From the NCBI GenBank assembly GCA_011033025.1, contig WFMF01000070.1, positions 558,001 to 622,000 of the forward strand: 64,000 bases of DNA. The letters are read 5' to 3'. This DNA is from Beroe forskalii (lineage: Eukaryota; Ctenophora; Nuda; Beroida; Beroidae). How positions within the stretch are numbered: the first letter of the stretch is position 1; each line of letters starts with the position of its first letter. This document shows, piece after piece, positions 16,170 to 42,831 of this stretch. The notes beneath the pieces were generated by a model. It was given only the letters and a program-made list of their open reading frames with translations. It had not been told where the DNA came from and made no database searches. The position numbers and the translations under genes are program-made.

Positions 16170-16370
16170 TGATTGCTGCTTTGTGTCCACGATAATGTCA
16201 ACTTAATTATCCATCATGGATCACTTTTTACAAAGCGATTTTTTAAAATAGTTATTCCAAACTTGGTGCTTTTGATGTTTTGTAAGTTTCGGTGAAGATC
16301 CCCCTGATTCCCTTAATTATTTAAATGCTTGTTTGATGGGGTGGTTAGACTTTTAAGGGAATGACCCTCC

Positions 16371-17030
16371 CCCCTTTCTCCCCTCCTCCCCCTTTTTCCC
16401 CCTCTTCCCCCCACCGTCCCCCTGGGGGACACCGGGCCAAAGGAAAGGTCGAGTGCCCCACCATCATCTGCAAGACACCAGGCTCAGAACGGGTCTCACG
16501 GAAGTAACGCCCCCATAAGGGAACAGCGCCGTGCAACCCTGACTGGTTCCATGGAAACCCGCCGCGGTGCATGGGGGAGAGATGGGGGGGAGGGGGGCCG
16601 GGCCACCGGAACCCGAGTATCGGCATGGGGTGGGCGTCCGGGGCGGCGCTAAAGCCTGCGCGGCGCCTTTTTTGGTCCCGGGGGGGAGAGAAGAAGGTGG
16701 GGGCGGCGCCAAAACGCGCGTACGATGCGGGAAAACAAGGCAGAACGGGGCGGCCTGAAAGGGGGGGAAGGAACGAAAAAACAGGGAATTGAAACGGGGG
16801 AAAAACAGGGAATGCCTACAAAAACAGGAACCCTAAAGAGGGAATGCCTGAAACGGGGAATGTCCGAGGGAAGGGAAAATGTCTGAATGTGGCGGGAGCC
16901 CCCGCTACCCCTCTAACCTCCTGCAGGTTCTGCAAGAAAAAAAGGGTTCGGGTTTTTAAATTGGGGTTGCTGAGTGAAGAGGACACTCATAGACGTGGAT
17001 TAGAGCGGGGGGCGGGGGGGATAGGGGACG
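16371..17030 (+). pseudogene. Degraded copy of the small membrane-protein gene
   Basis: Aligns to 31734-32519. The recognisable anchors are AACCCTGACTGGTTCCATGG, GAGTATCGGCATGGGGTGGG, GGAATGCCTGAAACGGGGAA and TTGCTGAGTGAAGAGGACA. Relative to the intact copy, G and C runs are lengthened (long G runs replace mixed G/A/T stretches), repeats are lost and the frame breaks many times. The mutations are biased to homopolymers, which looks more like poor consensus than ordinary decay. No functional protein can be read here. Confidence 0.8.
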
Positions 17031-17779
17031 CCACTTTTACCCCTTCCCACTCTTGTGTCGCGGGAAGTACGGAGTCAATATGCAGCCCCAGAGCGGGAGG
17101 GCGCGAGTTCAGGACAGTGCCAAGACGTATATTCATCTGTGGAATTATTTAATACATTGACGCGACAGCGATATTCAGAAACATCATCACCACATACAAG
17201 TCAGGAGTATAGTCCAAAGGATGATTAAAAAATACTGGCGAACATTTACGGCCGAAATTTTGATGTGATGGGGTGAATGATGAGATTGAATGGAAACAAA
17301 TCTAATGATTGAGAGTATTCTTAATTTAATGATTGAGATTATTCTAATTTTTGGTCATCATGACCAGCATGTGCATGAGACAGATATAGAAGTTATTCAA
17401 ATTTATACAGATCGTTATAGACCTGTGTTAGTGTGCGCAATGATTTTTAGATTTCAAATGTACTCCTGATGTGTACGTTAGATCAGAGATATTGCAGTGT
17501 TTATGATTCAATACGATTCTTTCTGGAGTCTATTTTACAGAGAAACCGTCATCTTGTAGTTGTTACAAAAAGGTATCATTGTCATCGTTCCCATGGATAT
17601 GTGAGTTGTAAATTCTCCAGTGACAATCTTTAGCTATGGTAGGTGATAGGAATGATAGGAATTTTTGAAAGCACTGGGACGTACTCCATTTGAAAGTGAT
17701 CCCCTACGCCTTGTTAAGGACCTTTTTTAACCCTCTATGATGAAGTGATCCCCTGGCCGCCCTTTGTTTAACTGCCTAC
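17031..17779. other. Non-coding, shared with copy 2
   Basis: Aligns with 32520-33040 and then jumps to 34350-34487. About 1.3 kb present in copy 2 are absent here at about 17553-17567. No gene. Confidence 0.6.
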
Positions 17780-17899
17780 CTCCATGATGTATGAAGTGAT
17801 CCCCGGGTCGCCTTGCTTCACCACGATGTCCTGGTCTTGGAACGTCACACTTCCAAAAAGCATCAGCCACTATCAAAGGCCTCCAGTTGTCTAGCGTCT
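17780..17899 (-). pseudogene. PRKAR1 CNB-B exon, damaged copy
   Basis: Copy of the exon at 34488-34609. The acceptor (CTCAG) and a donor-like GTAGG remain, but small indels (for example around 17850-17880) break the reading frame of the cyclic-nucleotide-binding segment. In copy 2 that segment reads [15 protein letters not shown]. At 120 bases it is shorter than the 122-base intact version. Confidence 0.8.
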
Positions 17900-18078
17900 C
17901 TGAGGGAAAACGGTAGATGGGGAAGGTGAAAGTAGCGTCTTTCTCTCTCTCTGAGAGAGACGATGCAAACTCGACCTCGGCTTGAACTCGATCGTTTACT
18001 GGTTAGAGTAGAAAAGTGAGATGTTAATCATGATAATGGGCACTTGAATCTCAATCTGTTCGACGAAGATGCGGAAAA

Positions 18079-21000
18079 ATAGTGCTAAGATAAGCAATCC
18101 TTACCGAGTATTGAAACATTCTTGAGGAATAGTGTTAAGATAAGCAATCCTTACCGAGTATTGAAACATTCTTGAGGAATAGTGCTAAGATAAGCAATCC
18201 TTACCGAGTATTGAAACATTCTTGAGGAATAGTGCTAAGATAAGCAATCCTTAATGAGTATTGGTATAGAAACATTCTTGATTTGAGGAATAGTGCTAAG
18301 ATAAGCAAATCCTTACCGAGTATTGAAACATTCTTGAGGAATAGTGCTAAGATAAGCAATCCCTTACCGAGTATTGAAACATTCTTGAGGAATAGTGCTA
18401 AGATAAGCAATCCTTAATTGAAACATTGAGTATTGAAACATTCTTGAGGAATAGTGCTAAGATAAGCAATCCTTACCGAGTATTGAAACATTCTTGAGGA
18501 ATAGTGCTAAGATAAGCAATCCTTACCGAGTATTGAAACATTCTTGAGGAATAGTGCTAAGATAAGCAATCCTTACCGAGTATTGGAAACATTCTTGAGG
18601 AATAGTGCTAAGATAAGCAATCTATTGAAACATTCTTGAGGAATAGTGCTAAGATAAGCAATCCTTACCGAGTATTGAAACATTCTTGAGGAATAGTGCT
18701 AAGATAAGCAATCCTTACCGAGTATTGAAACATTCTTGAGAATAGTGCTAAGATAAATCCTTACCGAGTATTGAAACATTCTTGAGGAATAGTGCTAAGA
18801 TAAGCAATCCTTACTTACCGAGTATTGAAACAATCCTTAGAATATTGGAAACATTCTTGAGGAATAGTGCTAAGAGGCAATCCTTACCGAGTATTGAAAC
18901 ATTCTTGAGGAATAGTGCTAAGATAAGCAATCCTACCGAGTATTGAAACATTCTTGAGGAATAGTGCTAAGATAAAATAAGTATTGAAATCATTAAACAG
19001 GAATAGTTGAAACATTCTTGAGAGATAGTTCTTTGAAATAGATAAGCAATCCTTACCGAGTATTGAAACATTCTTGAGGAATAGTGCTAAGATAAGCAAT
19101 CCTTACCGAGTATTGAAACATTCTTGATTGAAACATTCTTGAATAGTGCTAAGATAAGCAATCCTTACCGAGTATTGAAACATTCTTGAGGAATAGTGCT
19201 AAGATAAGCAATCCTTACCGAGTATTGAAACATTCTTGAGGAATAGTGCTAAGATAAGCAATCCTTACCATTCTTGAGGAGTATACGAAACATTCTTGAG
19301 GAATAGTGCTAAGATAAGCAATCCTTACTTTGAGTATTGCTAAGATAAGAAACATTCTTGAGGAATAGTAAACTAAGATAAGCAATCCTTACCGAGTATT
19401 GAAACATTCTTGAGGAATAGTGCTAAGATAAGCAATCCTTACCGAGTATTGAAACATTCTTGAGGAATAGTGCTAAGATAAGCAATCCTTACCGAGTATT
19501 GAAACATTCTTGAGGAATAGTGCTAAGATAAGCAATCCTTACCGAGTATTGAAACATTCTTGAGGAATAGTGCTAAGATAAGCAATCCTTACAGAGTATT
19601 GAAACATTCTTGAGGAATAGTGCTAAGATAAGCAATCCTTACCGAGTATTGAAACATTCTTGAGGAATAGTGCTAAGATAAGCAATCCTTACCGAGTATT
19701 GGAAACATTCTTGAGGAATAGTGCTAAGATAAGCAATCCTTGCCGAGTATTGAAACATTCTTGAGGAATATTCTTGAAACATTCTTAAGATAAGCAATCC
19801 TTACCGAGTATTGAAACATTCTTGAGGAATAGTATAAGATAAGCAATCCTTACCGAGTATTGAAACATTCTTGAGGAATAGTGCTAAGATAAGCAATCCT
19901 TACCGAGTATTGAAACATTCTTGAGTGAAGATAAGCAATAAGTGTCTAAGATAAGCAATCTTACCGAGTATTGAAACATTCTTGAGGAATAAATAAGAAT
20001 AGTGCTAAGATAAGCAATCCTTACCGAGTATTGAAACATTCTTGAGGAATAGTTAGTGCTAAGATAAGCAATCCTTACCAGTATTGAAACATTCTTGAGG
20101 AATAGTGCTAAGATAAGCAATCCTTACCGAGTATTGAAACATTCTTGAGGAATAGTGCTAAGATAAGCAATCCTTACCGAGTATTGAAACATTCTTGAGG
20201 AATAGTGCTAAGATAAGCAATCCTTACCGAGTATTGAAACATTCTTGAGGAATAGTGCTAAGATAAGCAATCCTTACCGAGTATTGAAACATTCTTGAGG
20301 AAGAGTGGGCAATCCTTACCGAGTATTGAAACATTCTTGAGGAATAGTGCTAAGATAAGCAATCCTTACCGAGTATTGAAACATTCTTGAGGAATAGTGC
20401 TAAGATAAGCAATCCTTACCGAGTATTGAAACATTCTTGAGGAATAGTGCTAAGATAAGCAATCCTTACCGAGTATTGAAACATTCTTGAGGAATAGTGC
20501 TAAGATAAGCAATAGTGCTAAGATAAGAGTATTGAAACATTCTTGAGGAATAGTGCTAAGATAAGCAATCCTTACCGAGTATTGAAACATTCTTGAGGAA
20601 TAGTGCTAAGATAAGCAATCCTTGAAACATTCTTGAGGAATAGTGCTAAGATAATTCTTTACCGAGTATTGAAACATTCTTGAGGAATAGTGCTAAGATA
20701 AGCAATCCTTACCGAGTATTGAAACATTCTTGAGGAATAGTGCTAAGATAAGCAATCCTTACCGAGTATTGAAACATTCTTGAGGAATAGTGCTAAGATA
20801 AGCAATCCTTACCGAGTATGAAACATTCTTGAGGAATAGTGCTAAGATAAGCAATCCTTACCGAGTATTGAAACATTCTTGAGGAATAGTGCTAAGATAA
20901 GCAATCCTTACCGAGTATTGAAACATTCTTGAGGAATAGTGCTAAGATAAGCAATCCTTACCGAGTATTGAAACATTCTTGAGGAATAGTGCTAAGATAA

Positions 21001-23467
21001 GCAATCCTTATTGAAACATTCTTGAGGAATAGTGCTAAGATAAGCAATCCTTACCGAGTATTGAAACATTCTTGAGGAATAGTGCTAAGATAAGCAATCC
21101 TTACCGAGTATTGAAACATTCTTGAGGAATAGTGCTAAGATAAGCAATCCTTACCGAGTATTGAAACATTCTTGAGGAATAGTGCTAAGATAAGCAATCC
21201 TTACCGAGTATTGAAACATTCTTGAGGAATAGTGCTAAGATAAGCAATCCTTACCGAGTATTGAAACATTCTTGAGGAATAGTGCTAAGATAAGCAATCC
21301 TTACGAAACATTCTTGAGGAATAGTGCTAAGATAAGCAATCCTTACCATTCCATTGAAACATTCTTGAGGAATAGTGCTAAGATAAGCAATCCTTACCGA
21401 GTATAGAAACATTCTTGAGGAATAGTGCTAAGATAAGCAATCCTTTACCGAGTATTGAAACATTCTTGAGGAATAGTGCTAAGATAAGCAATCCTTACCG
21501 AGTATTGAAACATTCTTGAGGAATAGTGCTAAGATAAGCAATCCTTACCGAGTATTGAAACATTCTTGAGGAATAGTGCTAAGATAAGCAATCCTTACCG
21601 AGTATTGAAATGCAAAACATTCATTCTTGAGGAATAGTGCTAAGATAAGCAATCCTTAAACATTCTTGAGTATTGAAACATTCTTGAGGAATAGTGCTAA
21701 GATAAGCAATCCTTACCGAGTATTGAAACATTCTTGAGGAATAGTGCTAAGATAAGCAATCCTTAGTGAAACTTCTTGAAATAGTGCTAAGATAAGCAAT
21801 CCTTACCGAGTATTGAAACATTCTTGAGGAATAGTGCTAAGATAAGCAATCCTTACCGGGTATTGAAACATTCTTGAGGAATAGTGCTAAGATAAGCAAT
21901 CCTTACCGAGTATTGAAACATTCTTGAGGAATAGTGCTAAGATAAGCAATCCTTACCGAGTATTGAAACATTCTTGAGGAATAGTGCTAAGATAAGCAAT
22001 CCTTACCGAGTATTGAAACATTCTTGAGGAATAGTGCTAAGATAAGCAATCCTTACCGAGTATTGAAACATTCTTGAGGAATAGTGCTAAGATAAGCAAT
22101 CCTTACCGAGTATTGAAACATTCTTGAGGAATAGTGCTAAGATAAGCAATCCTTACCGAGTATTGAAACATTCTTGAGGAATAGTGCTAAGATAAGCAAT
22201 CCTTACCGAGTATTGAAACATTCTTGAGGAATAGTGCTAAGATAAGCAATCCTTACCGAGTATTGAAACATTCTTGAGGAATAGTGCTAAGATAAGCAAT
22301 CCTTACCGAGTATTGAAACATTCTTGAGGAATAGTGCTAAGATAAGCAATCCTTACATTCTTGAGGAATAGTGCTAAGATAAGCAATCCTTACCATTCTT
22401 GAAAAATAAACATTCTTGAGGAATAGTGCTAAGATAAGCAATCCTTACCGAGTATTGAAACATTCTTGAGGAATAGTGCTAAGATAAGCAATCCTTACCG
22501 AGTATTGAAACATTCTTGAGGAATAGTGCTAAGATAAGCAATCCTTACCGAGTATTGAAACATTCTTGAGGAATAGTGCTAAGATAAGCAATCCTTACCG
22601 AGTATTGAAACATTCTTGAGGAATAGTGCTAAGATAAGCAATCCTTACCGAGTATTGAAACATTCTTGAGGAATAGTGCTAAGATAAGCAATCCTTACCG
22701 AGTATTGAAACATTCTTGAGGAATAGTGCTAAGATAAGCAATCCTTACCAGTATTGAAACATTCTTGAGGAATAGTGCTAAGATAAGCAATCCTTACCGA
22801 GTATTGAAACATTCTTGAGGAATAGTGCTAAGATAAGCAATCCTTACCGAGTATTGAAACATTCTTGAGGAATAGTGCTAAGATAAGCAATCCTTACCGA
22901 GTATTGAAACGACATTCTTCTTGAGGAATAGTGCTAAGATAAGCAATCCTTACCGAGGAATATAAGAAACAATCTTACCGAGGAAACATTCTTGAATAGT
23001 GCTAAGATAAGCAATCCTTACCGAGTATTGAAACATTCTTGAGGAATAGTGCTAAGATAAGCAATCCTTACCGAGTATTGAAACATTCTTGAGGAATAGT
23101 GCTAAGATAAGCAATCCTTACCGAGTATTGAAACATTCTTGAGGAATAGTGCTAAGATAAGCAATCCTTACCGAGTATTGAAACATTCTTGAGGAATAGT
23201 GCTAAGATAAGCAATCCTTACCAGTATTGAAACATTCTTGAGGAATAGTGCTAAGATAAGCAATCCTTACCGAGTATTGAAACATTCTTGAGGAATAGTG
23301 CTAAGATAAGCAATCCTTACATTCTTGAGAATAGAAACATTCATTCTTGAGGAATAGTGCTAAGATAAGCAATCCTTACCGAGTATAGAAACATTCTTGA
23401 GGAATAGTGCTAAGATAAGCAATCCTTACCAGTATAGAAACATTCTTGAGGAATAGTGCTAAGATAA
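18079..23467 (-). repeat. 50-bp satellite made of a PRKAR1 exon-intron junction
   Basis: The unit is 50 bp, with about 100 units by length plus some partial or rearranged ones. Read on -, each unit is TTCCTCAAGAATG + TTTCAATACTCG, identical to the last 25 bases of the PRKAR1 exon at 36250-36370, followed by GTAAGGATTGC + TTATCTTAGCACTA, the first 25 bases of the intron. Every unit therefore repeats the 5' splice site CTCG|GTAAGG. Open frames reading FLKNVSIL are the exon end read repeatedly and are not a separate gene. In this copy the body of the parent exon is missing, and the array meets unrelated sequence at 23467. Confidence 0.95.
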
Positions 23468-23611
23468 AAAATCATAAATCAGCTTCTGAAAGTCGTACAG
23501 AGTTCTTTTTAGCTCAAACGAAGTGCAATTGGCATGTTTATACACAATTGTTAAGCAAAATATTCCCTAACGTGCTCAGGAAAAAAAGATATGGGCCGAA
23601 ACAAGATGGAA
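23468..23611 (+). pseudogene. C-terminal half of an unrecognised ORF (copy 1)
   Basis: Corresponds to 37893-38041. It reads KNHKSASESRTEFFLAQTKC and continues to RYGPKQDGT then stop, with three amino-acid changes from copy 2. The N-terminal half is replaced by the 50-bp array. Function unknown. Confidence 0.35.
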
Positions 23612-24872
23612 CATAATAAGGGCGCATAATAAGGTCACATTATAAGGGAACATAATAAGGTCACATAATAAGGACACATAATAAGGTCACATAATAAGGG
23701 TATATAATAAGGGCACATAATAAGGTCATGGTGTGTAGAATAGGGATTTCTTCGTCAATTTAATCAGAAATAGGACGAGTAGAGTGGTTACGAACATCTT
23801 CAATTGTAACAATTAAAACGTCGTGTTCTTGTGATATTTCAATGAATATATCATTCATCATAGTCATACATTCTAATACAATATAATAAGGTCACATAAT
23901 AAGGGCACATAATCAGGGAACATAATAAGGTCACATAATAAGGGCACACAATAAGGTCACATTATAAGGGAACATAATAAGGTCACATAATAAGGGCACA
24001 TAATAAGGACAAATAATAAGGGCACATAATAGGGGCACATAATAATAATCAGGAAAAATAATAAGGGCACAAAATAAGGGCACATAATAAGGGCACATAA
24101 TAAAGGCACAAAGTAAGGGCCACATAATTAGGGCATATAATAAGTGCACATAATAAGGACAAATAATAAGGGCACAAAATAAGGGCACATAATAAGGGCA
24201 CATAATAAGGGCATATAATAAGGGTACATAATAAGGGCACATAGTAAGGGTACATAATAAGGGCGCATAATAAGGGCGCATAATAAGGGCACATAACAAG
24301 GGTACATGATAAGGGCACATAATAAGGGTACATGATAAGGGCACATAATAAGGGCACATAGTAAGGGCACATAGTAAGGGCACATAGTAAGGGTACATAA
24401 TAAGGGCACATAGTAAGGGCATATAATAAGGTCACATTATAAGGGAACATAATAAGGGTACATAACAAGGGTACATAATAAGGTCACATAACAAGGGTAC
24501 ATAATAAGGGTACATTATAAGGGCACATAATAAGGGCACATAATAAGGGTACATGATAAGGGCACATAGTAAGGGTACATGATAAGGGCACATAATAAGG
24601 GTACATGATAAGGGCAAATAGTAAGGGTACATAGTAAGGGCACATAGTAAGGGTACATAGTAAGGGCACATAGTAAGGGCATATAATAAGGTCACATTAT
24701 AAGGGAACATAATAAGGTCACATAATAAGGGCACATAACAAGGGTACATAACAAGGGTACATAATAAGATCACATAACAAGAGTACATAATAAGGGTACA
24801 TTATAAGGGCACATAATAAGGGCACATAGTAAGGGTACGTAATAAGGGCACATAGTAAGGGTACAAAATAAG
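23612..24872 (+). repeat. 13-bp minisatellite (ACATAATAAGGGC)n
   Basis: Unit GGGCACATAATAA with variants (GGTCACATAATAA, GGGTACATGATAA). Three units equal 39 bases, so spurious frames such as [13 protein letters not shown] appear on -. A non-repeat insertion lies at about 23726-23883 and is absent from copy 2. On - it can be read as MNDIFIEISQEHDVLIV, possibly a coding remnant. The array ends at the TIR element at 24873. Confidence 0.93.
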
Positions 24873-25167
24873 GGATCGTTCACATATTAGTACGTAATCA
24901 GCCGAGGGGGGGGAGGGGGTTTCCAAATGATTACGTTTGATTACGAGGGGGGAGGGGGGTTTGGCCAATGATTACGTAATCAAAATATCTAAATTTTCAT
25001 GAAAATTTCAAGGATTTTTATGAAAATTTCACGAATTTTCATGAAAATTTCAAGAATTTTCATGAAAATTTCAAGAATTTTTTATGAAAATTTAAAGGAT
25101 ATCCGAATTTTTATTACCAAAAATTAACCATTTGCAGAAAAAATTGTCAAAATTTCATAATTCATAA

Positions 25168-25248
25168 TTACAACAAATTAAAACACAAGGTTAATCGTCT
25201 TTACTTTAAGTTTCATGGGTAAATTCATACCCAATCGTCAGAAGACAA
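25168..25248 (-). repeat. Left inverted terminal repeat of the Penelope-like element
   Basis: This 81-bp arm is the reverse complement of 26844-26924. The ORF start (ATG at 25215) lies inside it. It contains the hammerhead motif on the minus strand. Confidence 0.95.
25195..25248 (-). ncRNA. Hammerhead ribozyme motif (left copy)
   Basis: Same 54-nt motif as at 26844-26897, here on -. Core box CTGACGA lies at 25241-25235 and the GAA box at 25214-25212. Being antisense to the retroelement ORF, it would only be active in a transcript running leftwards. Confidence 0.75.
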
Positions 25249-26698
25249 TCACAGAATCTCTCCTCGACAAGGCCATGGATTTCGCAGAGTCACATTGCAC
25301 GATTTCCCCATCAGATAGGAGCATCATCAAACAAGCTAAAAAGGCCCTTTTATTCAACGAGAACTCTTGTTGGGTAAAAAAGACCGATGACCTCTTTGAC
25401 ATCACCATGGGGTCATATGATGGTGCTGAATGTTGCGAAATCGTGGGTTTGTACCTCTTGCACAAGATCTCCAGCTTCCTTGAACCCCAGTACACTGGTC
25501 TTTACCGCGATGATGGACTCATTGCTGTCCCAAAGGCCAGTGGAAGAAAGATGGACCTCATCCGAAGGAAGCTTCACAAGTGTTTCAAGGATGAGGGACT
25601 GAAAATCATTGTTCAGACTGATATGGTTGTTGCTAACTTCTTGGACGTTACACTCAACCTGATGGATGGGACGTACAAACCATACAGAAAGCCAAACGAC
25701 ACACCCTTTACATCCACAAAGAATCGAACCACCGCCTTCAATCAAAAGAACCTGGTCCCTATGATTAACAATCGATTAAACTCAATCTCTAGCAATGAGA
25801 CGGTGTTTAATGATAGTAAAATCATATACCAAGAAGCACTTCAGAAAAAGCAGCCACAGCGAGCATCTTCAATGGACCGAAAGCACCCCTTCCCCTCAGA
25901 ACACACGCACTAAACGTCGTCGAGCTATCATTTGGTTTAACCCTCCATTCTGCGAGAATGTTACGACAAAGATTGGGAAAGAATTCTTCAAGATCTTGGA
26001 AAAACACTTCCCGAAGCGACACAAGTTCCATAAAATCTTGAACAGGAACAACGTTAAACTTTCATACTCTTGTACCCCAAACATAGGAAGTATGATAAAA
26101 TCCCATAATAGAAAGGCCTAGACAGAACTGAAGAGACCCAAACACTGCCCTGTAACTGCAGGAACAAAGAGCAGTGCCCCTGGACGGCCAATGTCGGGCC
26201 AAAGCAGTTGTGTACCAAGCTACCATATCGGACACCACAGTTCCTTCTCCTACATTGGTATATCAGAGCCAGAAGTGAAGAAAAGAGTCTCCAAACACAA
26301 GAACTCAATGAAGTACAGGGAGCACGAACAGGACACTGAACTCTCCAAGAAGTTCTGGGAGATGAAGGACAAGGCCGTACCCCCCTGTGCTGAAGTGGAA
26401 GATCTTGCAGTTTGCCAGGCCCTATCAGAACGGACGGCTCAACTGTGACCTCTGCCTGGGCGAAAAGCTCCAAATCATAAAATTTAAGGGCAATCAAAAA
26501 CTTTTGAATAAAAAGACTGAATTTATTTCTAAGTGCCGACATAAACGCAAATTTTTATTAGAGAGCATTATAATTTTACATTTTTACACTTTATGGTTTT
26601 TAAGTTTTAGTGAAGTACACTCTCGGCTGCGGCTCGTAGTAGTAACTTTCGTGATATTAATACGAATACTCAGCCGACGGTATTTTGCTTTAACTTGA
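25215..26698 (+). pseudogene. Penelope-like reverse transcriptase + GIY-YIG endonuclease
   Basis: The first frame (25215-25913) reads DGAECCEIVGLYLL, then the RT catalytic motif as YRDDGL, VVANFLDVTLNL and YKPYRKPND. The upstream half of the RT is missing, and the ATG lies in the inverted terminal repeat. The frame then moves at about 25690, 25850, 26105 and later, each time near a homopolymer. The shifted frames continue the protein with IIWFNPPF, LNRNNVKLSYSC, CNCRNKEQCPL, the GIY-YIG-type SYIGISEPEVKKRVSKHKNS, ELSKKFWEMKD and a cysteine motif CDLCLGEK...KCRHK. Family knowledge: GIY-YIG nucleases fused to RT define canonical Penelope-like elements. Truncated and frameshifted as read, so not functional; some shifts may be assembly errors. 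Confidence 0.8.
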
Positions 26699-26843
26699 GA
26701 CCTAAAAGTGTTTAAATGTTTATTTTTTTCAAAGTGGGGTTTTTTTAAAGAACGAATCTTTTATTTCGATTTATTGCTGAACTTTAACGATGGATTTTAT
26801 AAAGGAGTAGATCAGGATCATTTTGCCATTATTTTCATGTTAC

Positions 26844-26897
26844 TTGTCTTCTGACGATTGGGTATGAATTTACCCATGAAACTTAAAGTAAAGACGA
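26844..26897 (+). ncRNA. Hammerhead ribozyme motif (right copy, sense)
   Basis: The fold can be drawn by hand. Stem I pairs TTGTCTT (26844-26850) with AAGACGA (26891-26897), 7 bp with one G-U. The conserved box CTGACGA is at 26851-26857. Stem II pairs TGGGTA with TACCCA around a 6-nt loop. GAA is at 26878-26880. A very short stem III pairs ACT with AGT, and the cleavage triplet GTA ends at 26890. All invariant CUGANGA and GAA positions are present. The 10.1-11.1 pair is a U-U mismatch and stem III is minimal, as reported for hammerheads of Penelope-like elements. Confidence 0.82.
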
Positions 26898-26924
26898 TTA
26901 ACCTTGTGTTTTAATTTGTTGTAA
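26844..26924 (+). repeat. Right inverted terminal repeat of the Penelope-like element
   Basis: 81 bp, reverse complement of 25168-25248. It lies about 145 bp after the last open frame and contains the sense-strand hammerhead motif. Confidence 0.95.
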
Positions 26925-26989
26925 CTCGCTCGCTTATGCTAGAGCACTTTGTGAAATTGAATTTCAACACACTAATTCATAATTATGAT

Positions 26990-27655
26990 TAAAACATGAT
27001 CTACTTTAACTCAATATGGTTCAGAATGTACAGTTCCTTTAGTGCTGCCCGTAGAGGTCTTATAGGAGGGATGTACTCTATTCGTTGAACTCTTCCAAAC
27101 CACTTCAGTGCCTCTTTGTATATAATATAAGGTTTGCTGCTCTGTGCTTGATCAGAGGTTTGGAGGCCTTTCTTTCCCTAGAGCTCTAGAGTTGATGCCA
27201 GAGCAGGTCTTGGCGTACATCCGCAGCTCCATTATCCAGTAATCAATCTTTTTGATGAAGGTGTAGGAAGCTGCAGTTGTCTGTGAAGTTGCCAGACTCT
27301 GATCTGGCACTTAGGGGCTAGGGCTGATCTGGATCTTGCCATCTTGGGTTCTGTCGGCTTTGGTGGCAGATGAGCTGGACACGGATACTGAACTTTGGTT
27401 CCATCGGTTTTGAAGGAGGTTGAGGTGGGACCAAGACGTTGACTTCTGGCTCTTTAATGGAACTGGGGGCCTCAGGTGTAGAGGAGGAGGAGGATGATGA
27501 GCAGATGAGGATGCGTTGGAGGAAGAGAAAGAGGAGCAGGTGTCCATCTCATTGTCAGAGGAGTTGTCGTAGGCGAGATTTCCGTAGGAAAAACTAAATG
27601 AAGCTTTGAATGTCATCTTCAAGTCGATGATGTTGATGATTGAATTGAAACACAC
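26990..27655 (-). pseudogene. Coding-like region inside the TIR element, unrecognised
   Basis: On -, an ORF at 27655-27311 gives MTFKASFSFSYGNLAYDN followed by a Ser- and Pro-rich stretch. A neighbouring frame gives SSIKEPEVNVLVPPQPP, suggesting a frameshift. Further downstream other frames give KKIDYWIMELRMYAKTCSG (about 27240-27180) and KEALKWFGRVQRIEYIPP... ending ELYILNHIELK stop (about 27120-27000). The pieces look like exons or frameshifted parts of one protein starting near the right TIR, as a transposon gene would. I do not recognise a transposase or Myb domain, so the function is unknown. Confidence 0.35.
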
Positions 27656-27915
27656 GATACTGTTCTAATTTTTTGTCAGTTAATATAGTTTTTTGTGACA
27701 TCAAAAAAACTGAAGGAGGGGGGGGGGGTGGGCCATGATTACGTAATATTTTCCGAAAAAGAGGGGGGGTTTGGCCATGATTACGTTTGATTACGGAGGG
27801 GGGGAGGGGGGTAAAAAATGCCCAAAAATTGATTACGTAATATGTGAACGATCCCATAAAAACACATGACAAGGGAACATAGTAAGGCACTTGAAAAACT
27901 GAACATTTGACCCAC

Positions 27916-28072
27916 CCTGACAGTAGCAGCGCGAGGACAGCCGTGGATGAGCGCCAACTCTCCAAAACTCCCACTTTCCCCGAGAGTTGACTGCAGCACG
28001 TCGTTTATAACGATCTCAACTTCCGCCGTGGTTTATTACGTAGAAGTTGTCTCCCTCGTCTCCTGGCGATTA
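27916..28072 (-). pseudogene. PRKAR1 CNB-A exon, frameshifted copy
   Basis: Copy of the exon at 38557-38714 with acceptor CCCAG and donor AGG|GTGGGT retained. A 2-base loss near 28062 and a 1-base gain near 28025 shift the frame, so the start reads out of frame while [19 protein letters not shown] survives at the end. 157 bases against 158 in the intact copy. Confidence 0.9.
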
Positions 28073-28954
28073 CTGGGTGTTGTCACTCAATCATGAACTG
28101 GGGAACGGGGAAACAAATTGGGAAAATAAAAGGGGTACAAAGATTTTCCGACTTTGTCTGACCCCCTCGCAGGAGAAAACAACGTTTGACAATACAAGGA
28201 GAGTATTCCATAACCAAGCACATTGCCAAAAAGTCCACCAGGACTTCGGGGGCGACTTCTAAACCTGTGGTGAGACTACTATATAAGATCTGATTGAACC
28301 GCCTAGGTGATTCGTTTTGAGCCGTGCCTTAGCAGATTTTTTTCCTGTGCACACGTCTTTTAATTACCTGATCTCTGTTCTCAAGCGGTCCCCAGCAGGG
28401 GAGAAGGGGGTGTAGGAGTGAGAGGTGGTGTGGAGGATGTCTTAGTGTGTTGGGCGCAGGTTGCATGATAGTATGGTTTGACACTTTTTGGTTAGACTGA
28501 TCGACTCGATCTGGTATGACACGTATTAGTTGGACTCTTCCTGGTCTGACATGTTATGAGATGCCTCCTGGCACAATCTTTCTGGTGGTTCTCTCTCTTA
28601 ACCCAGATGGCTGCATCGAATTGCTATCTGTCCGATTCATCTCACGCTCATACAGTCTAGTACGGGCGCGACGCGCACATTTCCTTTCACAATGCGCGCG
28701 AAAGAAACATACGTGTGTATGTTTTTTAAGGGTCTTTTCATTTTACTGAAGCCATGCGCCGTACAAAACCAGAAGATGATTCCGCGAAGTCAGTAGGACT
28801 TTCTCCAAAATTGTACGCAATGAACAGCGATATTTGTGATCTTTCAAAAAAAAACTTTGAAGTTAATGTTGGTGTATTTTGAAGTTTATGGGATGAAATC
28901 GGACCAAATTAAAAGGATTATATGAGGCCGATAATTGGAACCCATTAGCAAAAA
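28073..28954. other. Intron-like sequence shared with copy 2, then unique
   Basis: 28073-28788 aligns with 38715-39472. Copy 2 has a small extra segment near 38900-38930. 28789-28954 is unique to this copy. No exon is recognised. Confidence 0.5.
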
Positions 28955-31509: not shown

Positions 31510-31733
31510 AGATCTGCTGCTTTGTGTCCATCAGATAATGTCAACTTAATTATCCATCATGGATCACGTTTTACAAAGCGATATTTTAAAATAGTTACTT
31601 CAAACTTTGTTTTGTTGCTTCTTGTAATGTTTTGTGTAAGATTCGGTGAAGATCTCCTAATTACCGATTAATCCTATTTAAATGCTTGTTTGATAGGGTG
31701 GTTAGCACTGTGTAAGGAATGACCCCTCCTCCC

Positions 31734-32519
31734 ATGTCTTCTCTCCCTCCTCCTCCTGTTTGCCTGCCTCTTCCACCTCACCGTCTCCCTGGAGTGTTAC
31801 GACCTGGCTAAGTGTACAGGTCGTGATGTGTACCGCACTATCATCTGCAAGACTACCAGCGCTCAGAACTGCGTGTCTACACGCGGACCAGCGTCAACTG
31901 CCCCCGCATGAAGGGGAACAGCGCGCCGTGCAACCCTGACTGGTTCCATGGTAACTGCCGCTGCAGTGCTATCGGGGAGGAGACGGAGGTGGCGGGGGAG
32001 GGGCGGTGCCAGTGCCACCTGGACACCCGGAGTATCGGCATTGTGGTGGGCGTCCTGGTGGCGGCGCTAATAGCTGCTGCTGCGGCGCTCTTCTTCTGGT
32101 CCCGGTGGGTGGAGATGAAGAAGGTGGCCCAGGCGGCGCGCATTGAGACGCGCGTACTGAGCCGAGTGCTGGAAAACAAGGCAGCAACGGGGCGGCCTGA
32201 AAGTGGTGGGGAAGGGAACGCCTACGAAACAGGGAATGCCTCCGAAACAGGGAATGCCTCCGAAACAGGGAATGCCTCCGAAACAGGGAATGCCTCCGAA
32301 AGAGGGAATGCCTCCGAAACAGGGAATGTCGCGGGAGAGGAAGGAAACATGTCTGAATGTGCGTCAGGAGCCCCTCCGCTACCCCCCTCTAATCCTCCTG
32401 CAGGCTCTGTGCAAGAGAAAAGTGGTCTGGTTATCCACAGTGCTGAGTTGCTGAGTGAAGAGGACATCTACATAGACGTGGATTACGAGCAGGGGGCTGT
32501 GGGGGCCAGCATAGTGTGA
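31734..32519 (+). CDS. Small single-pass membrane protein, cysteine-rich ectodomain
   Basis: The ORF from 31908 gives 203 residues: a cysteine-rich segment (Cys 8, 17, 19, 34, 36), a membrane span around residues 43-64 (GIVVGVLVAALIAAAAALFF) with a WSRW/K stop-transfer edge, then a cytoplasmic tail with six or seven GNASET repeats (18 bp each, 32214-32330), a proline stretch and an acidic end (SEEDIYIDVDYEQG). Upstream, in another frame, is a signal-peptide-like LSLLLLFACLFHLTVSLECY and more cysteines (DLAKC, TIICKT, QNCVS). An in-frame ATG at 31734 precedes it after a further shift. So I infer one gene with two small frame breaks (near 31745 and 31885), from assembly error or decay. Family not recognised. 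Confidence 0.55.
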
Positions 32520-34487
32520 CGCCACTCTTACCTCACTCACTCTTAGTGTCACTGGTATACGGGAGTCAATAAGGTGCCCCAGAGCGGGGAGGGCGCGAGT
32601 TCAGGACAGTGCCACATCGTGAAATTCGTGGGAACATTACCACATTTGACGGACAGCGATATCCGTGGAAACATCACCACATATGTCAGGAGTAAAGTCC
32701 AGCGATGATTAAAAAATACTGGCGAACATTTACGGCTGAAATTTGATGTGATGGGAGAATGATGAGGATTGAATGGAAACAAATCTAATGATTGAGAGTA
32801 TTCTAATCTAATGATTGAGATTATTCTAATTTTGGTCATCAAGTGACCAGCATGTACATGACAGATACAGAAGCATTCAAATTTATACAGATCGTTATAG
32901 ACCTGTGTTAGTGTGCGCAATGATTTTAGATTTCAAATGTACTCCTGATGTGTACGTTAGATCAGAGATATTGCAGTGTTTTTTATGATTCAATACGATT
33001 CTTCTGAGTTCATTTTTACAGAGAAACCGTCATCTTGTAGTTCATAGGTTCATATAACTTGAAAATCACCACCCTTATCCTCCCTAAATTGAAAGTTTAT
33101 CTTCGGTTTTTCATCTCTGGTATTTCAATTTTTGAGGTTTAAAAACTTGCTCAACAAGGTATCTGATTATTTGAATATTTGACTTTAAGAAAGAGACCGA
33201 TAAATTTCTAGCAAAAAGATCAAACTTATAAGGCAGGGGTCTGGGGCCCTGGGGGCGGCAGCCCCCAGAAGCCAGACGTTGAATTGATGTCTCAATAGGA
33301 TTTTTAACCTCATTTCAGTCTAATTTTAAGGCTAGTTCAAGATATTTGATCACATTACACAAAAAAAGTATCTATAAAAAGGGCAATGTTGGGGGTCTGG
33401 GAGCGGCAGCCCCCAGAAGGCCAACATTTGGACAAATGCCATCTCAATAAGACTTTTACCGTCATTCAGTCCAGGGGGCGGCGACACAGGCGGCTGCCTC
33501 CCCCTTTTGGGTAGGTGATATGGAAATGTTGTTTATTTCTATAAGATGAGAGCTTTGAGCCAACAAAATAAAACATTTAACAGGTTTTGGATGGTTTTGA
33601 ATGTAACTCGCCATCCCCTTTGTAGAAATCTGGCTACGCCCTGATTCAGTCATTCATGTCTAATTTTGATGTATAAGCATATCAGTTCTTTGGTAGGAGA
33701 AATGTTTACAGAAACGAAAATAAAACTCATTTTAGGCGGGCCTTGGATGTGGGAGCGTTAGCTCCCAGAAGCCAGACGTTTGGAGCAAATCGAAATTGGG
33801 GTGCCATCTCAGTATGATATTTGCCCTCATTTCAGTCCAAATCTTTCACAGTATCACAATTAAAATGCACTTAATCTTCGCTTGTCCAAGACATAAGATA
33901 ATTAATTTATCCAATTTAGATGAGAAATGATATGTATTGTCTTTGCCCTTTAGACTTTTGTTGATAGATTAATCATATGCATGCTGCTTATTAATCCTCG
34001 TTCTCATTGAATATCAAAATAATAGCCATCATCAAAGCAATGATAATCTTGGGCTTTATCAAAAACATTCCCTTTAGCTATCCTAAATTCTGCTCTTGGA
34101 CAACCGAAAATGATCCTGGAAAAGCGAATGGGGTCCTTAGTTTTCCTCATTTGGTTTTTGGTTTCAAGTCACATAGCACATCTCAAAAATAGATGACAAT
34201 TTCACAATTTTTCCACCACTTATCACCAAATTTTGTTTGTTTTTTTTTTTCAAATCTTTGAAAATTTTTGCTTGTAGAAAAATTTTTATCCTCGCCCTGG
34301 GCCTTATCCTCCCTATGGGAAATGGATTTCAACTTTTGTGAAGGGGTGACAAAAAGGTATCATTGTCATCGTTCCCATGGATATGTGAGTTGTAAATTCC
34401 TCCTAGTGACACCTTAGCTAGCTATGGTAGGTGATAGGAATTTTAGGACGTTACATTTGAAAGCACTCCTTACGGTAAGGACCTTAC
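32520..34487. other. Non-coding; includes a 1.3-kb insert absent from copy 1
   Basis: 32520-33040 matches copy 1. 33041-34349 is missing there and contains three degenerate copies of a GGGGGCGGCAGCCCCCAGAA-type hairpin (about 33245, 33395, 33475) and a CCTTATCCTCCCTA motif near both its ends. On - this is the intron downstream of the PRKAR1 exon at 34488. No further PRKAR1 exon was found here. Confidence 0.5.
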
Positions 34488-34609
34488 CTCCATGATTATG
34501 TAGAAGTGATCCCCGGGGTCGCCTTGCTTCACCACGATGTCCTGGTCTTGGAACGTCACACTCTCCAAAGCATCAGCCACTATCAAGCGCTCCCAGTTGT
34601 CTAGCGTCT
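34488..34609 (-). CDS. PRKAR1 exon: start of cyclic-nucleotide-binding domain B
   Basis: Part of the type I regulatory subunit of cAMP-dependent protein kinase, which holds the catalytic subunit inactive until cAMP binds. On -, acceptor TTTTCCTTCAG precedes 122 bases (2 + 40 codons) reading [40 protein letters not shown], then donor GTAAGG. The family has the same order (S-I-L-E-S-L-D-K-W-E-R-L-T-V-A-D-A-L). The start phase completes the Glu codon split after the exon at 36250-36370. The following exon, with the domain-B phosphate-binding cassette, was not found in the window. Confidence 0.93.
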
Positions 34610-34792
34610 CTGAAGGAAAACGGTAGAGGGGGAAGGTGAAAGTAGCGTCTCTCTCTCTCTCTCTCTGAGAGAGACGAGGCAAACTCGACCTCGGGTTGAA
34701 CTCGATCGTTTACTGGTTAGAGTAGAAAAGTGAGATGTTAATCATGATAATGGGCACTTGAATCTCAATCTGTTCGACGAAGATGCGGAAAA

Positions 34793-36274
34793 ATAGTGCT
34801 AAGATAAGCAATCCTTACCGAGTATTCTTGAGAATAGTGTAAAACATTCTTGAGGAATAGTGCTAAGATAAGCAATCCTTACCGAGTATACATAGAAACA
34901 TTCTTGAGGAATAGTGCTAAGATAAGCAATCCCTTACCGAGTATAGAAACATTCTTGAGGAATAGTGCTAAGATAAGCAATCCTTACCGAGTATAGAAAC
35001 ATTCTTGAGGAATAGTGCTAGATAAGCAATCCTACGATAGAAACATTCTTGAGGAATAGTGCTAAGATAAGCAATCCTTACCGAGTATTGAAACATTCTT
35101 GAGGAATAGTGCTAAGATAAGCAATCCTTACCGAGTATTGAAACATTCTTGAGGAATAGTGCTAAAGATAAGCAATCCTTACTGATAGAAACATTCTTGA
35201 GGAATAGTGCTAAGATAAGCAATCCTTACCGAGTATAGAAACATTCTTGAGGAATAGTGCTAAGATAAGCAATCCTTACCGAGTATTGAAACATTCTTGA
35301 GGGAATAGTGCTAAGATAAGCAATCCTTACCGAGTATTGAAACATTCTTGAGGAATAGTGCTAAGATAAGCAATCCTTACCGAGTATTGAAACATTCTTG
35401 AGGAATAGTGCTAAGATAAGCAATCCTTACCGAGTATAGAAACATTCTTGAGGAATAGTGCTAAGATAAGCAATCCTTACCGAGTATTGAAACATTCTTG
35501 AGGAATAGTGCTAAGATAAGCAATCCTTACCGAGTATTGAAACATTCTTGAGGAATAGTGCTAAGATAAGCAATCCTTGAGGAATACCAAGATGAGTATT
35601 GAAACATTCTTGAGGAATAGTGCTAAGATAAGCAATCCTTACCGAGTATTGAAACATTCTTGAGGAATAGTGCTAAGATAAGCAATCCTTACCGAGTATT
35701 GAAACATTCTTGAGGAATAGTGCTAAGATAAGCAATCCTTACCGAGTATAGAAACATTCTTGAGGAATAGTGCTAAGATAAGCAATCCTTACCGAGTATT
35801 GAAACATTCTTGAGGAATAGTGCTAAGATAAGCAATCCTTACCGAGTATTGAAACATTCTTGAGGAATAGTGCTAAGATAAGCAATCCTTACCGAGTATT
35901 GAAACATTCTTGAGGAATAGTGCTAAGATAAGCAATCCTTACTTGAGGAATAGTGCTAAGAAACATTCTTTGAAACATTCTTGAGAATAGTGCTAAGATA
36001 AGCAATCCTTACCGAGTATAGAAACATTCTTGAGGAATAGTGCTAAGATAAAGCAATCCTTACCGAGTATTGAAACATTCTTGAGGAATAGTGCTAAGAT
36101 ATAAGCAATCCTTACCTTGAGGAATAGTGCTAAGATAAGCAATCCTTACCGAGTATAGAATCATTCTTGAGGAAAAGTGCTAAGATAAGCAATCCTTACC
36201 GAGTATAGAAACATTCTTGAGGAATAGTGCTAAGATAAGCAATCCTTACCGAGTATTGAAACATTCTTGAGGAA
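34793..36274 (-). repeat. 50-bp exon-intron-junction satellite, copy 2
   Basis: Same unit as 18079-23467, about 29 units by length. On -, it begins at the end of the exon at 36250-36370: the first unit's exon half is the real exon end (36250-36274) and the array fills the start of the intron. At the other end it runs into TATTTTTCCGCATCTTC, the single-copy continuation of the intron. Many units here have TATA in place of TATT before GAAACATTC on +. Each unit offers CTCG|GTAAGG. Confidence 0.95.
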
Positions 36275-36370
36275 TGATTCGTACAGCTTGCGCTTCCTGA
36301 TGGTATTCGCCATTAGGATCTTGCGGTAGGTGTGTCCGTCGATTGCCCACAGTTTGACATCAGTCTTCGC
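36250..36370 (-). CDS. PRKAR1 exon: end of cAMP domain A and linker helix
   Basis: On -, acceptor GTCCATCAG is followed by 121 bases (40 codons + 1) reading [40 protein letters not shown], then G and donor GTAAGG. In the family this is the region after the domain-A phosphate-binding cassette, including the Trp of V-K-L-W and the R-K-R-K helix leading to domain B. Phase 0 at the start fits the exon at 38557-38714; phase 1 at the end fits 34488-34609. The last 25 bases are the source of the satellite that follows. Copy 1 has lost this exon body. Confidence 0.95.
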
Positions 36371-37744
36371 CTGATGGACTTTCCACTATTAAATTGAAAC
36401 TACTAATTAAAATCATTTTCAGTGAGGTAGGGAATTTACTAGTTCAACAGATTGCCACTGCCCATAACCCAAAGAAGATCAGGCCACATAGTAAGGCCAC
36501 ATAATGAGGATAGGCAGGTGACACGGATATTACTCATTATCTGCAAATTGTTAAACAAGTCTGAAACTTTTCACAGTTGTTCTATAAAATTCAAAGTATC
36601 AAAAAAAGGAGTGAAAAAATTTACCTTCGGCAACGCCCATGAGGGCCACGCCCCGTTTTGACAATATGCGCACGGGTCAAAAAGAATTGCGCCTGCTGGA
36701 GCATTTCTTGTGCGTTGATTGTTCCCGTATGCAGGCGCTTAATTTCCTGTTCCCCGGGGCTGGTATTACTAGAACGTACGCTGTCATTTGACCGTTGTCA
36801 GTCTTATTTACTGACATAGTGAGTTGACGATAAAGCATAAAAGTGACCTCACAAATCAAGATACAATCGCGGGCGTACACCTACGGGAATTAAGAGCAAG
36901 AGTTGGTATTGAATAGATTAAAGATTTATCTGAAATAATTTTCCGTGATAAAACGCTTCTTCTATCAAGTGTGACATCGCAATACTAACAATTTTTGAAT
37001 TTTATAAATATTCCACAATCCACGTTATGCGGGCGCTATATATATTTCATTCTCCTACAATAAACAATTTTGAATTAACGCGCGCAGATCGAAATATCAC
37101 GTGGGCGATTTCGTTCCACGTGCCAAATGTTCGCGCGCGCGTTCCCGCCATTTCATAGAACTCTTTGAAGATTCGTTGCGCGCCGTTCAGAGTTTCATAA
37201 CTATGAATTATGATCACCATTTTCGTTACGCGTTAAATTTTCTTTTGTGTTGCGTTGCAGATATCAAAACATTGCACTGATCGCTAATATTGTACCCCGC
37301 CTTGATAATTTCAAGATTGAGATTCACAATATAATTATTAATTACTGACCAAGATTAAAGATTCAGATATATCATTGTTATCAATCAAGAACCGAGACAA
37401 ACTCTTATGTTTTACTTTCCTCTAGTCAATTCTTTAGATCATTCATAACTGATGGCACTAATACTGCCCATTGTAAATTGGCCGCTACTTAAAGAAATTC
37501 AAATGGCTGTGTGATTGAAATCCAATCTGATTGATTCTGTGAAGATTGATTAAGTTTTAATTTTATGATTGTTTTAAGAATTGTTAGATTTTTGATAAAG
37601 AACATCAGCATGAACAGAGCATTGAACTCGAATACCAAAGTAGCCCAGTTAGCTAGCTGCAGCCCATAATGCGAAGGATGCCACTACACCAAGCTATTCT
37701 GACGCGAGTGATATTATAAAGGAGCAGTTGATCGAAAATGTGAC
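36371..37744. other. PRKAR1 intron sequence (copy 2 only)
   Basis: Lies between two PRKAR1 exons on -. No match in copy 1. Contains a GC-richer patch with GCGCGCGCG near 37130 and otherwise ordinary AT-rich sequence. No other gene recognised. Confidence 0.5.
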
Positions 37745-38041
37745 ATGCATACATACGACGACGACATACCACCTATTTCAGATTTAACAGTACGCGTAAA
37801 GGTAGTATACACACAACCCCCAAAAAACACGATCTCTGCTAACCTTTTCTCAATGCCTTTTTGTAAAACAAAAACGCGATTGGGAACAGGAAAAAATCAT
37901 AAATCAGCTTCTGAAGGTCGTGCAGAGTTCTTTTTAGCTCAAACGAAGTGCAATTGGCATGTTTATACACAATTGTTAAGCAAAATATGCCCTAACGTGC
38001 TCAGGAAAAAAAGATATGGGCCAAAACAAGATGGAACATAA
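37745..38041 (+). CDS. 98-residue ORF of unknown function
   Basis: ATG-initiated ORF reading MHTYDDDIPPISDLTVRVKV and ending KKRYGPKQDGT. No recognised domain. Its second half is also kept in copy 1 (23468-23611) with few changes and no frameshift, which argues weakly for a real or recently coding unit. It lies in a PRKAR1 intron on the opposite strand and its stop codon abuts the 13-bp minisatellite, so it could instead be a transposon remnant or chance. Confidence 0.25.
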   Translation: MHTYDDDIPPISDLTVRVKVVYTQPPKNTISANLFSMPFCKTKTRLGTGKNHKSASEGRAEFFLAQTKCNWHVYTQLLSKICPNVLRKKRYGPKQDGT

Positions 38042-38530
38042 TAAGGGCGCATAATAAGGGAACATAATAAGGTCACATAATAAGGGCACATAATAAGGGC
38101 ACATAATCAGGGAACATAATAAGGTCACATTATAAGGGCACATAATAAGGTCACATTATAAGGGAACATAATAAGGTCACATAATAAGGTCACATAATAA
38201 GGGCACATAATAAGGGTACATGATAAGGTCACATAATAAGGTCACATAATAAGGGCACATAGTAAGGGTACATAATAAGGTCACATAATAAGGGTGCATA
38301 ATAAGGTCACATAATAAGGTCACATAATAAGGGCACATAACAAGGGTACATAATAAGGGCACATAATAAGGGTACATGATAAGGGCACATAATAAGGGCA
38401 CATGATAAGGGCACATAATAAGGGCACATAATAAGGTCACATAATAAGGGAACATAATAAGATCACATAATAAGGGAACATAGTAAGGGTACAAAATAAG
38501 GTCAGATAGTAAGGGAACATAACAAGGGCA
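38042..38530 (+). repeat. 13-bp minisatellite, copy 2
   Basis: Unit GGGCACATAATAA / GGTCACATAATAA, about 37 units by length. Same position as 23612-24872, between the unknown ORF and the PRKAR1 CNB-A exon. No TIR element is present here. Confidence 0.93.
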
Positions 38531-38556
38531 CTTGAAAAACTGAACATTTGACCCAC

Positions 38557-38714
38557 CCTGACAGTAGCAGCGCGAGGACAGCCGTGGATAAGCGCCAACT
38601 CTCCAAAACTCCCACTTTCCCCGAGAGTTGACTGCAGCACGTCGTTTATAACGATCTCCACTTCGCCGTGGTTTATTACGTAGAAGTTGTCTCCCTCGTC
38701 TCCTTGAGTGATTA
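38557..38714 (-). CDS. PRKAR1 exon: cyclic-nucleotide-binding domain A
   Basis: On -, acceptor ACACCCAG is followed by 158 bases (2 + 52 codons) reading [34 protein letters not shown] and [19 protein letters not shown], then donor GTGGGT. This is the phosphate-binding cassette of domain A: the family FGELAL...PRAATV motif supplies the Glu and Arg that bind cAMP, and both are present. The end in phase 0 fits the next exon. Upstream exons (dimerisation domain, inhibitor site) should lie at higher coordinates but were not found; the satellite-filled region starts 760 bp away. Confidence 0.95.
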
Positions 38715-39472
38715 CTGGGTGTTGTCACTCAATCATGAACTGGGGAACGGGGAAACAAATTGGGAAATAAAAGGGGGTACAAAGATTTTCCGACGTTGTC
38801 TGACCCCCTCGCAGGAGAAAACAACGTTTGACAATACAAGGAGAGTATTCCATAACCAAGCACATTGCCAAAAAGTCCACCAGGACTTCGGGGGCGCGTT
38901 TGCTCGATGTACCAAAAAAATAAATCGGTCTAAACCTGTCGTGAGACTACTATATAAGATTTGATTGAACCGCCTAGGTTTTGAGTACATGATCGGCCGT
39001 GCCTTAGCAGATATTTTCCTGTGCACACGTCTTGTTATTACCTGATCTCTGTTCTCAAGCGGTCCAGATGATCCCCAGCAGGGGAGGAGGGGTGTAGGAG
39101 TGAGAGGTGGTGTGGAGGATGTCTTAGTGTGTTGGGCGCAGGTTGCATGATAGTATGGTTTGACACTTTTTGGTTAGACTGATCGACTCGATCTGGTATG
39201 ACACGTATTAGTTGGACTCTTTCTGGTCTGACATGTTATGAGATGCCTCCTGGCACAATCTTTCTGGTGGTTCTCTCTCTTAACCCAGATGGCTGCATCG
39301 AATTGCTATCTGTCCGATTGATCTCACGCTCATACAGTCTAGTACAGGCGCGACGCGCACATTTCCTTTCACAATGCGCGCGAAAGAAACATACGTGTGC
39401 ATGTTTTTTAAGGGTCTTTTCATTTTACTGAAGCCATGCGCCGTACAAAACAGGAGATGATTCCGCGAAGTG
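38715..39472. other. PRKAR1 upstream intron, shared with copy 1
   Basis: Aligns with 28073-28788 almost base for base. It can be read as short frames (GTIFLVVLSLNPDGC), present in both copies, but there is no support for an exon. Non-coding as far as I can tell. Confidence 0.45.
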
Positions 39473-41394: not shown

Positions 41395-42831
41395 AAATAT
41401 CCTACTCAGCCCCTGTGACATAGAATTTGCTTAAACTTGCCTAAAATGTGTATTTCAATGATACAAAGCTGTGGTAAAAATTTCAACATAGGTTTATGAG
41501 TTCGTTTAGGAGCTGCGGTACTTCAAACACAAGGAAATACCGAATATCGACTTGAGATTTTTGCCACTATGGGCTATATCTCAGCCCCTGTGACATAGAA
41601 TTTGCTTAAACTTGCCTAAAATGTGTATTTCAATGATGCGAAGCTGTGGTAAAAATTTCAACATAGGTTTATGAGTTCGTTTAGGAGCTGCGGTACTTCA
41701 AACACAAGAAAATGTCAAAATCGACTTGAAAATTTTTCAGCCCCTGTGACATAGAATTTGGCCAAAAAATGTATTTCTCAAGCTGTGCCACCTTTAGTGA
41801 CTTCTAACACAAGAAAATGTCAAAAGAAAGTTTTTTTCATAATATATCTCAGCCCCTGTGACATGAATTTGCTTAAACTTGCCTAAAATGTATTTCAATG
41901 ATAAGAAGCTTTGGTAAAAATTTCAACACAGGTTTATGAGTTCGTTTAGGAGCTGCGGTACTTCAAACACAAGAAAATGTCAAAATAGCGAAAATTTTTG
42001 CCACTATGGGCTATATCTCAGCCCCTGTGACATAGAATTTGCTTAAACTTGCCTAAAATGTGTATTTCAATGATACGAAGCTGTGGTAAAAATTTCAACA
42101 TAGGTTTATGAGTTCGTTTAGGAGCTGCGGTACTTCAAACACAAGAAAATGTCAAAATAGCGAAAATTTTTGCCACTATGGGCTATATCTCAGCCCCTGT
42201 GACATAGAATTTGCTTAAACTTGCCTAAAATGCGTAATTCAATGATACGAAGCAGTGGTAAAAATTTCAGCATGGGTTTATGAGTTCGTTTAGGAGCTGT
42301 GGTACTTCAAACACAAGGAAATACCGAATATCGACTTGAGATTTTTGCCACTATGGGCTATATCTCAGCCCCTGTGACATAGAATTTGCTTAAACTTGCC
42401 TAAAATGTGTATTTCAATGATACGAAGCTGTGGTAAAAATTTCAACATAGGTTTATGAGTTCGTTTAGGAGCTGCGGTACTTCAAACACAAGAAAATGTC
42501 AAAATAGCGAAAATTTTTGCCACTATGGGCTATATCTCAGCCCCTGTGACATAGAATTTGCTTAAACTTGCCTAAAATGTGTATTTCAATGATACGAAGC
42601 TGTGGTAAAAATTTCAGCATAGGTTTATGAGTTCGTTTAGGAGCTGCGGTACTTCAAACACAAGGAAATACCGAATATCGACTTGAGATTTTTGCCACTA
42701 TGGGCTATATCTCAGCCCCCGTGACATAGAATTTGCTTAAACTTGCCTAAAATGTGTATTTCAATGATAAGAAGCTTTGGTAAAAATTTCAACACAGGTT
42801 TATGAGTTCGTTTAGGAGCTGCGGTACTTCA
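41395..42831 (+). repeat. 172-bp satellite, + block 1
   Basis: Unit about 172 bp with landmarks CAGCCCCTGTGACATAGAAT, GCTTAAACTTGCCTAAAATG and GTTCGTTTAGGAGCTGCGG. Some units are shortened by internal deletions (41740-41860). The last unit is cut by the LINE at about 42832. Confidence 0.95.

Follow-up and report, generated by a model that had tools for sequence, protein, structure and literature searches.

Three consecutive exons (A, B and C) of a PKA type-I regulatory subunit lie on the minus strand of the window, the whole 64-kb stretch of DNA that was analysed. Exon A (38557..38714; tblastn, translation, Pfam PF00027) is PRKAR1-like, belongs to the CNB-A domain and is intact, with a translation ending in AATVR and the donor AGG/GTGGGT (the slash marks the splice site). 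Exon B (36250..36370, 121 bp; tblastn, translation), the parent exon of the repeats described below, is also intact and reads AKTDVKLW...FLKNVSIL, ending with the G of a split Glu codon. The acceptor at 34609 completes this codon (G/AG) and opens the 122-bp exon C (34488..34609; tblastn, translation), which encodes the start of CNB-B, is intact (TLDNWERL...DHFYIIME) and has the donor GAG/GTAAGG. Joined, the three exons give 134 open residues corresponding to human RI residues 164-297, with a Pfam match to PF00027. All 134 residues were aligned to RI-alpha (best E 4.7e-62); the best RII match was weaker (1.7e-36). A protein search with the three-exon peptide returned 337 proteins at or below 0.001, and among the 120 of these that were listed the best species-named match was Limulus (74% over 99%). 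Judged by the RI-alpha and RII alignments, the parent exon belongs to a PKA type-I regulatory subunit and is closer to RI than to RII. The sequence-only reading, which had called exon 36250-36370 a PRKAR1 exon encoding FLKNVSIL and the split Glu, was correct in both respects.

A tandem array (A2) was found directly behind exon B. The parent 50-bp unit (36225..36274, minus strand; unit alignment) spans the real donor, with 25 nt from the end of exon B on one side and 25 nt from the start of the intron on the other. Twenty-nine further units (34793..36249, minus strand; TRF, unit counts) follow head-to-tail and adjoin exon 36250-36370 with no break, the coordinates beginning with the intron half of the parent unit. 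Eleven of the 29 are identical to the parent, 5 more have one base different, and the TRF score is greater than 2,000, so that chance is of no concern. The unit joins exon end, donor and intron start, and A2 is an exon-intron boundary tandem repeat. The array thus agrees with the earlier description of a 50-bp exon/intron unit repeated about 29 times directly past the real donor. The further claim that CTCG/GTAAGG occurs in every unit did not hold: the full donor 10-mer CTCGGTAAGG (CTCG/GTAAGG) was present in 23 of the 29 downstream units; in the remaining units the donor region is altered by small deletions, insertions or rearrangements.

A second array (A1; 18078..23473, minus strand; TRF, unit counts) contains about 108 copies of the A2 unit and is without the parent exon. 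A1 and A2 are on the same strand, and both are about 93-94% identical to the unit. Self-BLAST, with a listing that left out pairs having either side mostly inside a satellite array, showed that the locus is tandemly duplicated. The outer limits of homology are 16171..28790 for copy 1 and 31511..39471 for copy 2, which holds the intact exons. The duplicated blocks are 16171-17561 and 31511-33042 (82%), 17562-17675 and 34346-34467 (88%), 23466-23728 and 37891-38153 (93%), 27871-28254 and 38511-38896 (97%), and 28258-28790 and 38929-39471 (94%). The sequence-only reading had reported A2 and had overlooked the duplicated locus and its second array.

Copy 1 is broken. Its A1 array runs at the 5' flank straight into the homologue of 37891 and up; copy 1 therefore lacks exon B together with about 1.5 kb of intron. 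The two remaining exons, exon C (17779..17900, minus strand) and exon A (27915..28071, minus strand), both identified by tblastn and alignment to copy 2, are interrupted by several small indels and by small indels, respectively, whereas exons A, B and C of copy 2 are open. Alignments of the copy-1 exons A and C contained 3 and 5 gaps (5 and 7 when exon edges were cut by hand), and the exon C donor is altered to GTAGGC. An excess of indels in the broken exons was considered and not upheld, many gaps being found in other inter-copy blocks too. Just behind exon C (17562-17778 against 34346-34487) the two copies are much more scrambled, with 13 gaps in 142 bp, than in the intron before exon C, with 3 gaps in 183 bp. 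At 17705-17814 of copy 1 a piece of the exon C end (GGGGATCACTT...) recurs twice behind exon C, at spacings of 51 and 49 bp. The piece may mark another tandem duplication across a donor, with a period close to that of the arrays, that copy 2 lacks.

The genome-wide alignment of the unit that the sequence-only reading had proposed was run on the 216-Mb assembly. It recovered A2 and also gave matches in A1; all 63 matches listed, a lower bound, fall in these two arrays. At the DNA level, the 121-bp exon B had at least one match in the assembly, and exons A and C with their flanks at least two each. The head-to-tail order and the identity of about 93-94% to the unit resemble dispersed satellite DNA. 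The difference is that all listed matches, at least 63 in number, are at one duplicated locus whose single-copy origin is known; they gave no sign of arrays scattered over many genomic sites.

Several other repeats were recorded in the window. A 13-bp minisatellite (ATAATAAGGGCAC) at 38036-38531 starts about 26 nt behind the exon A donor of copy 2, and its copy-1 counterpart (23611-24874) is longer. An interstitial telomere-like repeat (GGGTTAGGGTTT)n at 12142-12527 is flanked on both sides by palindromic repeats of 15 bp (AGTTCGCGGCGAACT and one very similar to it). Two LINE copies (8607-11364 and 43891-46756), inverted relative to each other, are 95-99% identical in two aligned pieces, and the protein of a LINE ORF at 42806-45385 includes endonuclease and reverse transcriptase domains. 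A 30-bp minisatellite family occurs in both orientations (4076-5060, 6965-8451 and 12991-14602). Arrays of a 172-bp satellite are at 41405-42832, 51827-56853 and 60035-62554, with an orientation switch near 52665. A plus-strand ORF of 230 aa (31827-32519) lies in the duplicated stretch; it contains an 18-bp coding repeat (ETGNAS) and, by eye, a likely membrane span, and no Pfam family was found above cut-off. An assembly gap (N) of 100 bases is at window 860-959, and a second gap, about 10 kb long, is 5.5 kb beyond the window end.

Two properties of the unit bear on how the locus would be spliced. When the exon is extended into the array, the reading continues as GKDCLS and then TAG, a stop within the first intron-derived half unit, so extension terminates for any number of units. 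Intact units also contain a pyrimidine-rich stretch ending in TAG, 20 nt past the donor, that is a possible acceptor (TTGCTTATCTTAG/C). From this putative acceptor to the next donor the distance is usually 30 nt (17 of 23 cassettes in A2 and 65 of 83 in A1, with a strict pattern). The 30-nt segment is open, in the exon frame, and translates into ten residues that copy the native exon end. Putative introns that skip one or more units would be 70, 120 or 170 nt.

The arrays are probably a neutral minisatellite that was seeded across the 5' splice site by a microhomology duplication, with the locus duplicated later. At the unit junction, exon ...TCATTCC and intron ...CTATTTTTCC are joined as ...CTATTCC. 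Judged by eye, the junction fits a 3-bp ATT match between the exon end and the intron, and the sequence supports an origin of the unit by duplication across the exon B 5' splice site. The slippage between TTCC in the exon and TTTTTCC in the intron suggested earlier was roughly right, but the join is read here as the ATT match. A short tandem duplication joined at this match would have copied 25 exon nt and 25 intron nt. Provided that the locus is transcribed, the new units would have fallen inside the intron and been spliced away with it; being removed with the intron, they would leave slippage and unequal exchange free to lengthen the array. Unrelated minisatellites and satellites are abundant in the window (TRF), which was counted for the neutral-minisatellite reading.

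Tandem duplication of the whole locus would have followed formation of the array. A1 and A2 have the same 3' boundary (AGCACTATTTTTCCGCATC) and end at the same base next to TTTTTCCGCATC. One unit position varies between A and T in both arrays, a change that is silent in the exon frame, and T forms occur toward the exon-side end of both arrays (in A2 the units at 36224 and 36174, in A1 the first three scored units). The common boundary and the exon-side T forms argue for an array older than the duplication. The 3' ends are unlike, with mostly T forms in A2 and mostly A forms in A1, and the case for a shared history is therefore made by the boundary and the exon-side units. Copy 1 would then have lost its parent exon by a deletion ending in the array, gathered frameshifts and come to hold about 108 units; 54 of these are identical to the reference unit, which fits later growth of A1. 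Copy 2 would have retained intact exons and 29 units.

Selection on the decoy donors was assessed by counting intact 10-mers at each of the 50 positions around the unit in both arrays. The donor 10-mer ranked ninth lowest of 50 in A2 (23/29) and second lowest of 50 in A1 (intact in 77/108 units), and the profiles of the two arrays correlate at 0.79. Many of the unit variants are short indels or internal joins. These counts gave no sign that decoys are retained by selection, the donor ranking in both arrays with the most weakly conserved segments of the unit, and its lack of maintenance within units was counted in favour of neutrality. The low conservation could reflect selection against decoys. 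Fisher tests of donor against comparison counts gave p values of 0.0019 (A1), 0.25 (A2) and 0.0005 (pooled), in a weak comparison whose counts were picked after viewing the data. Purging of decoys was rejected, since the exonless A1 has the same low donor conservation and local mutation is a simpler cause.

The neutral reading carries expectations for the transcript. In copy 2 the exon-adjacent donor is expected to make nearly all productive mRNA, and use of a decoy would give an mRNA with an immediate stop that would be degraded. The sequence-only reading had stated that insertion of n x 50 nt would usually break the frame; extension is indeed predicted to be harmful, but the statement was too mild, as an immediate stop after GKDCLS is met for any n. 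It had also offered slowed splicing, titration of U1 or neutrality as effects of the array. Neutrality is the favoured reading here. Titration is implausible on numbers, because the abundance of U1 makes its depletion by about 30 sites very unlikely.

A comparable repeat is known in human CBS, where a 31-bp VNTR is named c.1444_1467+7(16_21) (PMC2630376, in excerpt). We read this name as 16 to 21 copies of a unit with 24 exon nt and 7 intron nt. A review describes the repeat as non-coding and located at the exon 13/intron 13 boundary, and relates second-hand that more repeats were reported with lower enzyme activity (PMC5188458); such arrays therefore need not be neutral. The two cases share a unit made of exon end and intron start with a donor copy in each, a position at an exon/intron boundary and about twenty units. 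They differ in the unit, which is 31 bp (24+7) in CBS and 50 bp (25+25) here, and in number, with 16-21 copies, polymorphic in people, against 29 and about 108 in one assembly here; here there are also two linked copies, one without its exon. By this analogy the locus belongs to the CBS-type boundary repeats, a kind of event already known from human CBS; what is new is the greater unit length, a second array linked to the first and, in one copy, the loss of the parent exon. The CBS 844ins68 duplication, in the same excerpted source (PMC2630376), likewise crosses an intron/exon junction and leaves identical splice sites in competition. New introns are known to arise by tandem duplication across splice sites (PMC4974935, in part). 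The case in that excerpt is similar in that a tandem duplication over an intron-exon boundary hands on splice signals, and different in that a new intron was detected and the duplication ran from the end of intron 1 into exon 2, whereas here the donor was crossed. Other donor-spanning minisatellites were not recognised in the literature searched, and absence from print is not claimed.

How much splicing of the array matters depends on whether the gene is alive. It is possible, although less likely than not, that the locus is a non-functional PRKAR1 fragment in satellite-rich DNA with the true gene elsewhere, in which case splicing of the array would not matter; this is compatible with a neutral minisatellite. 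The exon search covered the window, 80 kb below it, 28 kb above it (about 10 kb of this being gap) and the first 78 kb of the contig, and in these approximately 250 kb of the 650-kb contig only the three exons were found. A full gene has a dimerization domain, an inhibitor site and two cAMP sites, and only residues matching human 164-297 were present. Human RI residues 1-163 and 298-381 gave weak matches (best 0.59 and, once cross-matches to exon A are set aside, 2.2), and another weak match for the missing ends (0.70) was on the wrong strand. With three exons, the description of a working copy of an essential signalling gene, made earlier, is not earned. Two further points favour a fragment: the satellite-rich neighbourhood and, about 2 kb beyond exon C, the plus-strand ORF that contains a coding repeat. 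Against it, the copy-2 exons are all open while the duplicate gathered lesions, which suggests recent constraint on copy 2. Exon B was without another near-identical copy among the assembly matches; any true gene elsewhere would therefore need to be clearly diverged or absent from the assembly. The contig between 78001 and 478000 (400 kb) lay outside the search, and the 10-kb gap is upstream; both also weigh against the fragment.

It is unlikely that the array acts as a brake on splicing, with identical donors binding U1 and some transcripts using a decoy, so that the exon is extended into the stop after GKDCLS. The outcome would be lower gene output, or a short RI with the first cAMP site only. 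The array carries putative decoy U1 sites, in line with the earlier claim: intact decoys equal the real donor at every U1-pairing base (-8.7 kcal/mol for both), and every extension ends in the same stop. According to an excerpted study, several 5' sites can hold U1 together, and multiple occupancy alters 5' site choice but leaves efficiency unhurt unless the sites are very close (PMC5389562), a result that counts for the brake in its first part and against it in its second. SRSF1 and hnRNP A1 push choice toward intron-proximal and intron-distal sites, and of competing donors the intron-proximal one can win in some settings (PMC5585400, in part); such a preference would put a decoy ahead of the real site and speaks against the neutral reading. 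Given these effects, the winning donor cannot be named from the sequence alone. The CBS repeat, with its second-hand link between repeat number and activity, is a precedent for a brake. The donor is not conserved within units, and completeness and expression of the gene are only presumed, both of which argue against a brake. Masking of decoys by RNA folding was considered and set aside: three units gave -24.0 kcal/mol, a value without shuffle control, and there was no contrast, as real and decoy sites have common local sequence.

An assembly artefact, in which the array lengths or the duplicate itself are wrong, is very improbable. Long repeats are often mis-sized and the contig has gaps, but A1 and A2 differ in their unit variants and 5' flanks, and in unique sequence the copies are told apart by substitutions and indels; the exact array lengths are still uncertain. 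Hardly to be credited is a reading of the 30-nt segments as a bank of micro-exons giving a length-variable PKA subunit, in which each included segment would lengthen the stretch between the two cAMP sites by 10 residues and splicing would remove the stop that makes plain exon extension harmful.

On the preferred reading of a neutral minisatellite, a splice site can give rise to a tandem repeat that survives because it lies inside the intron and that rides along in a duplication, and an array can persist, and be longer, where the exon that seeded it is gone. If the gene is expressed, a single intron would naturally combine the real 5' splice site with 23 identical ones, mostly at 50-nt spacing, and would offer a ready test of how one among many equal donors is picked.
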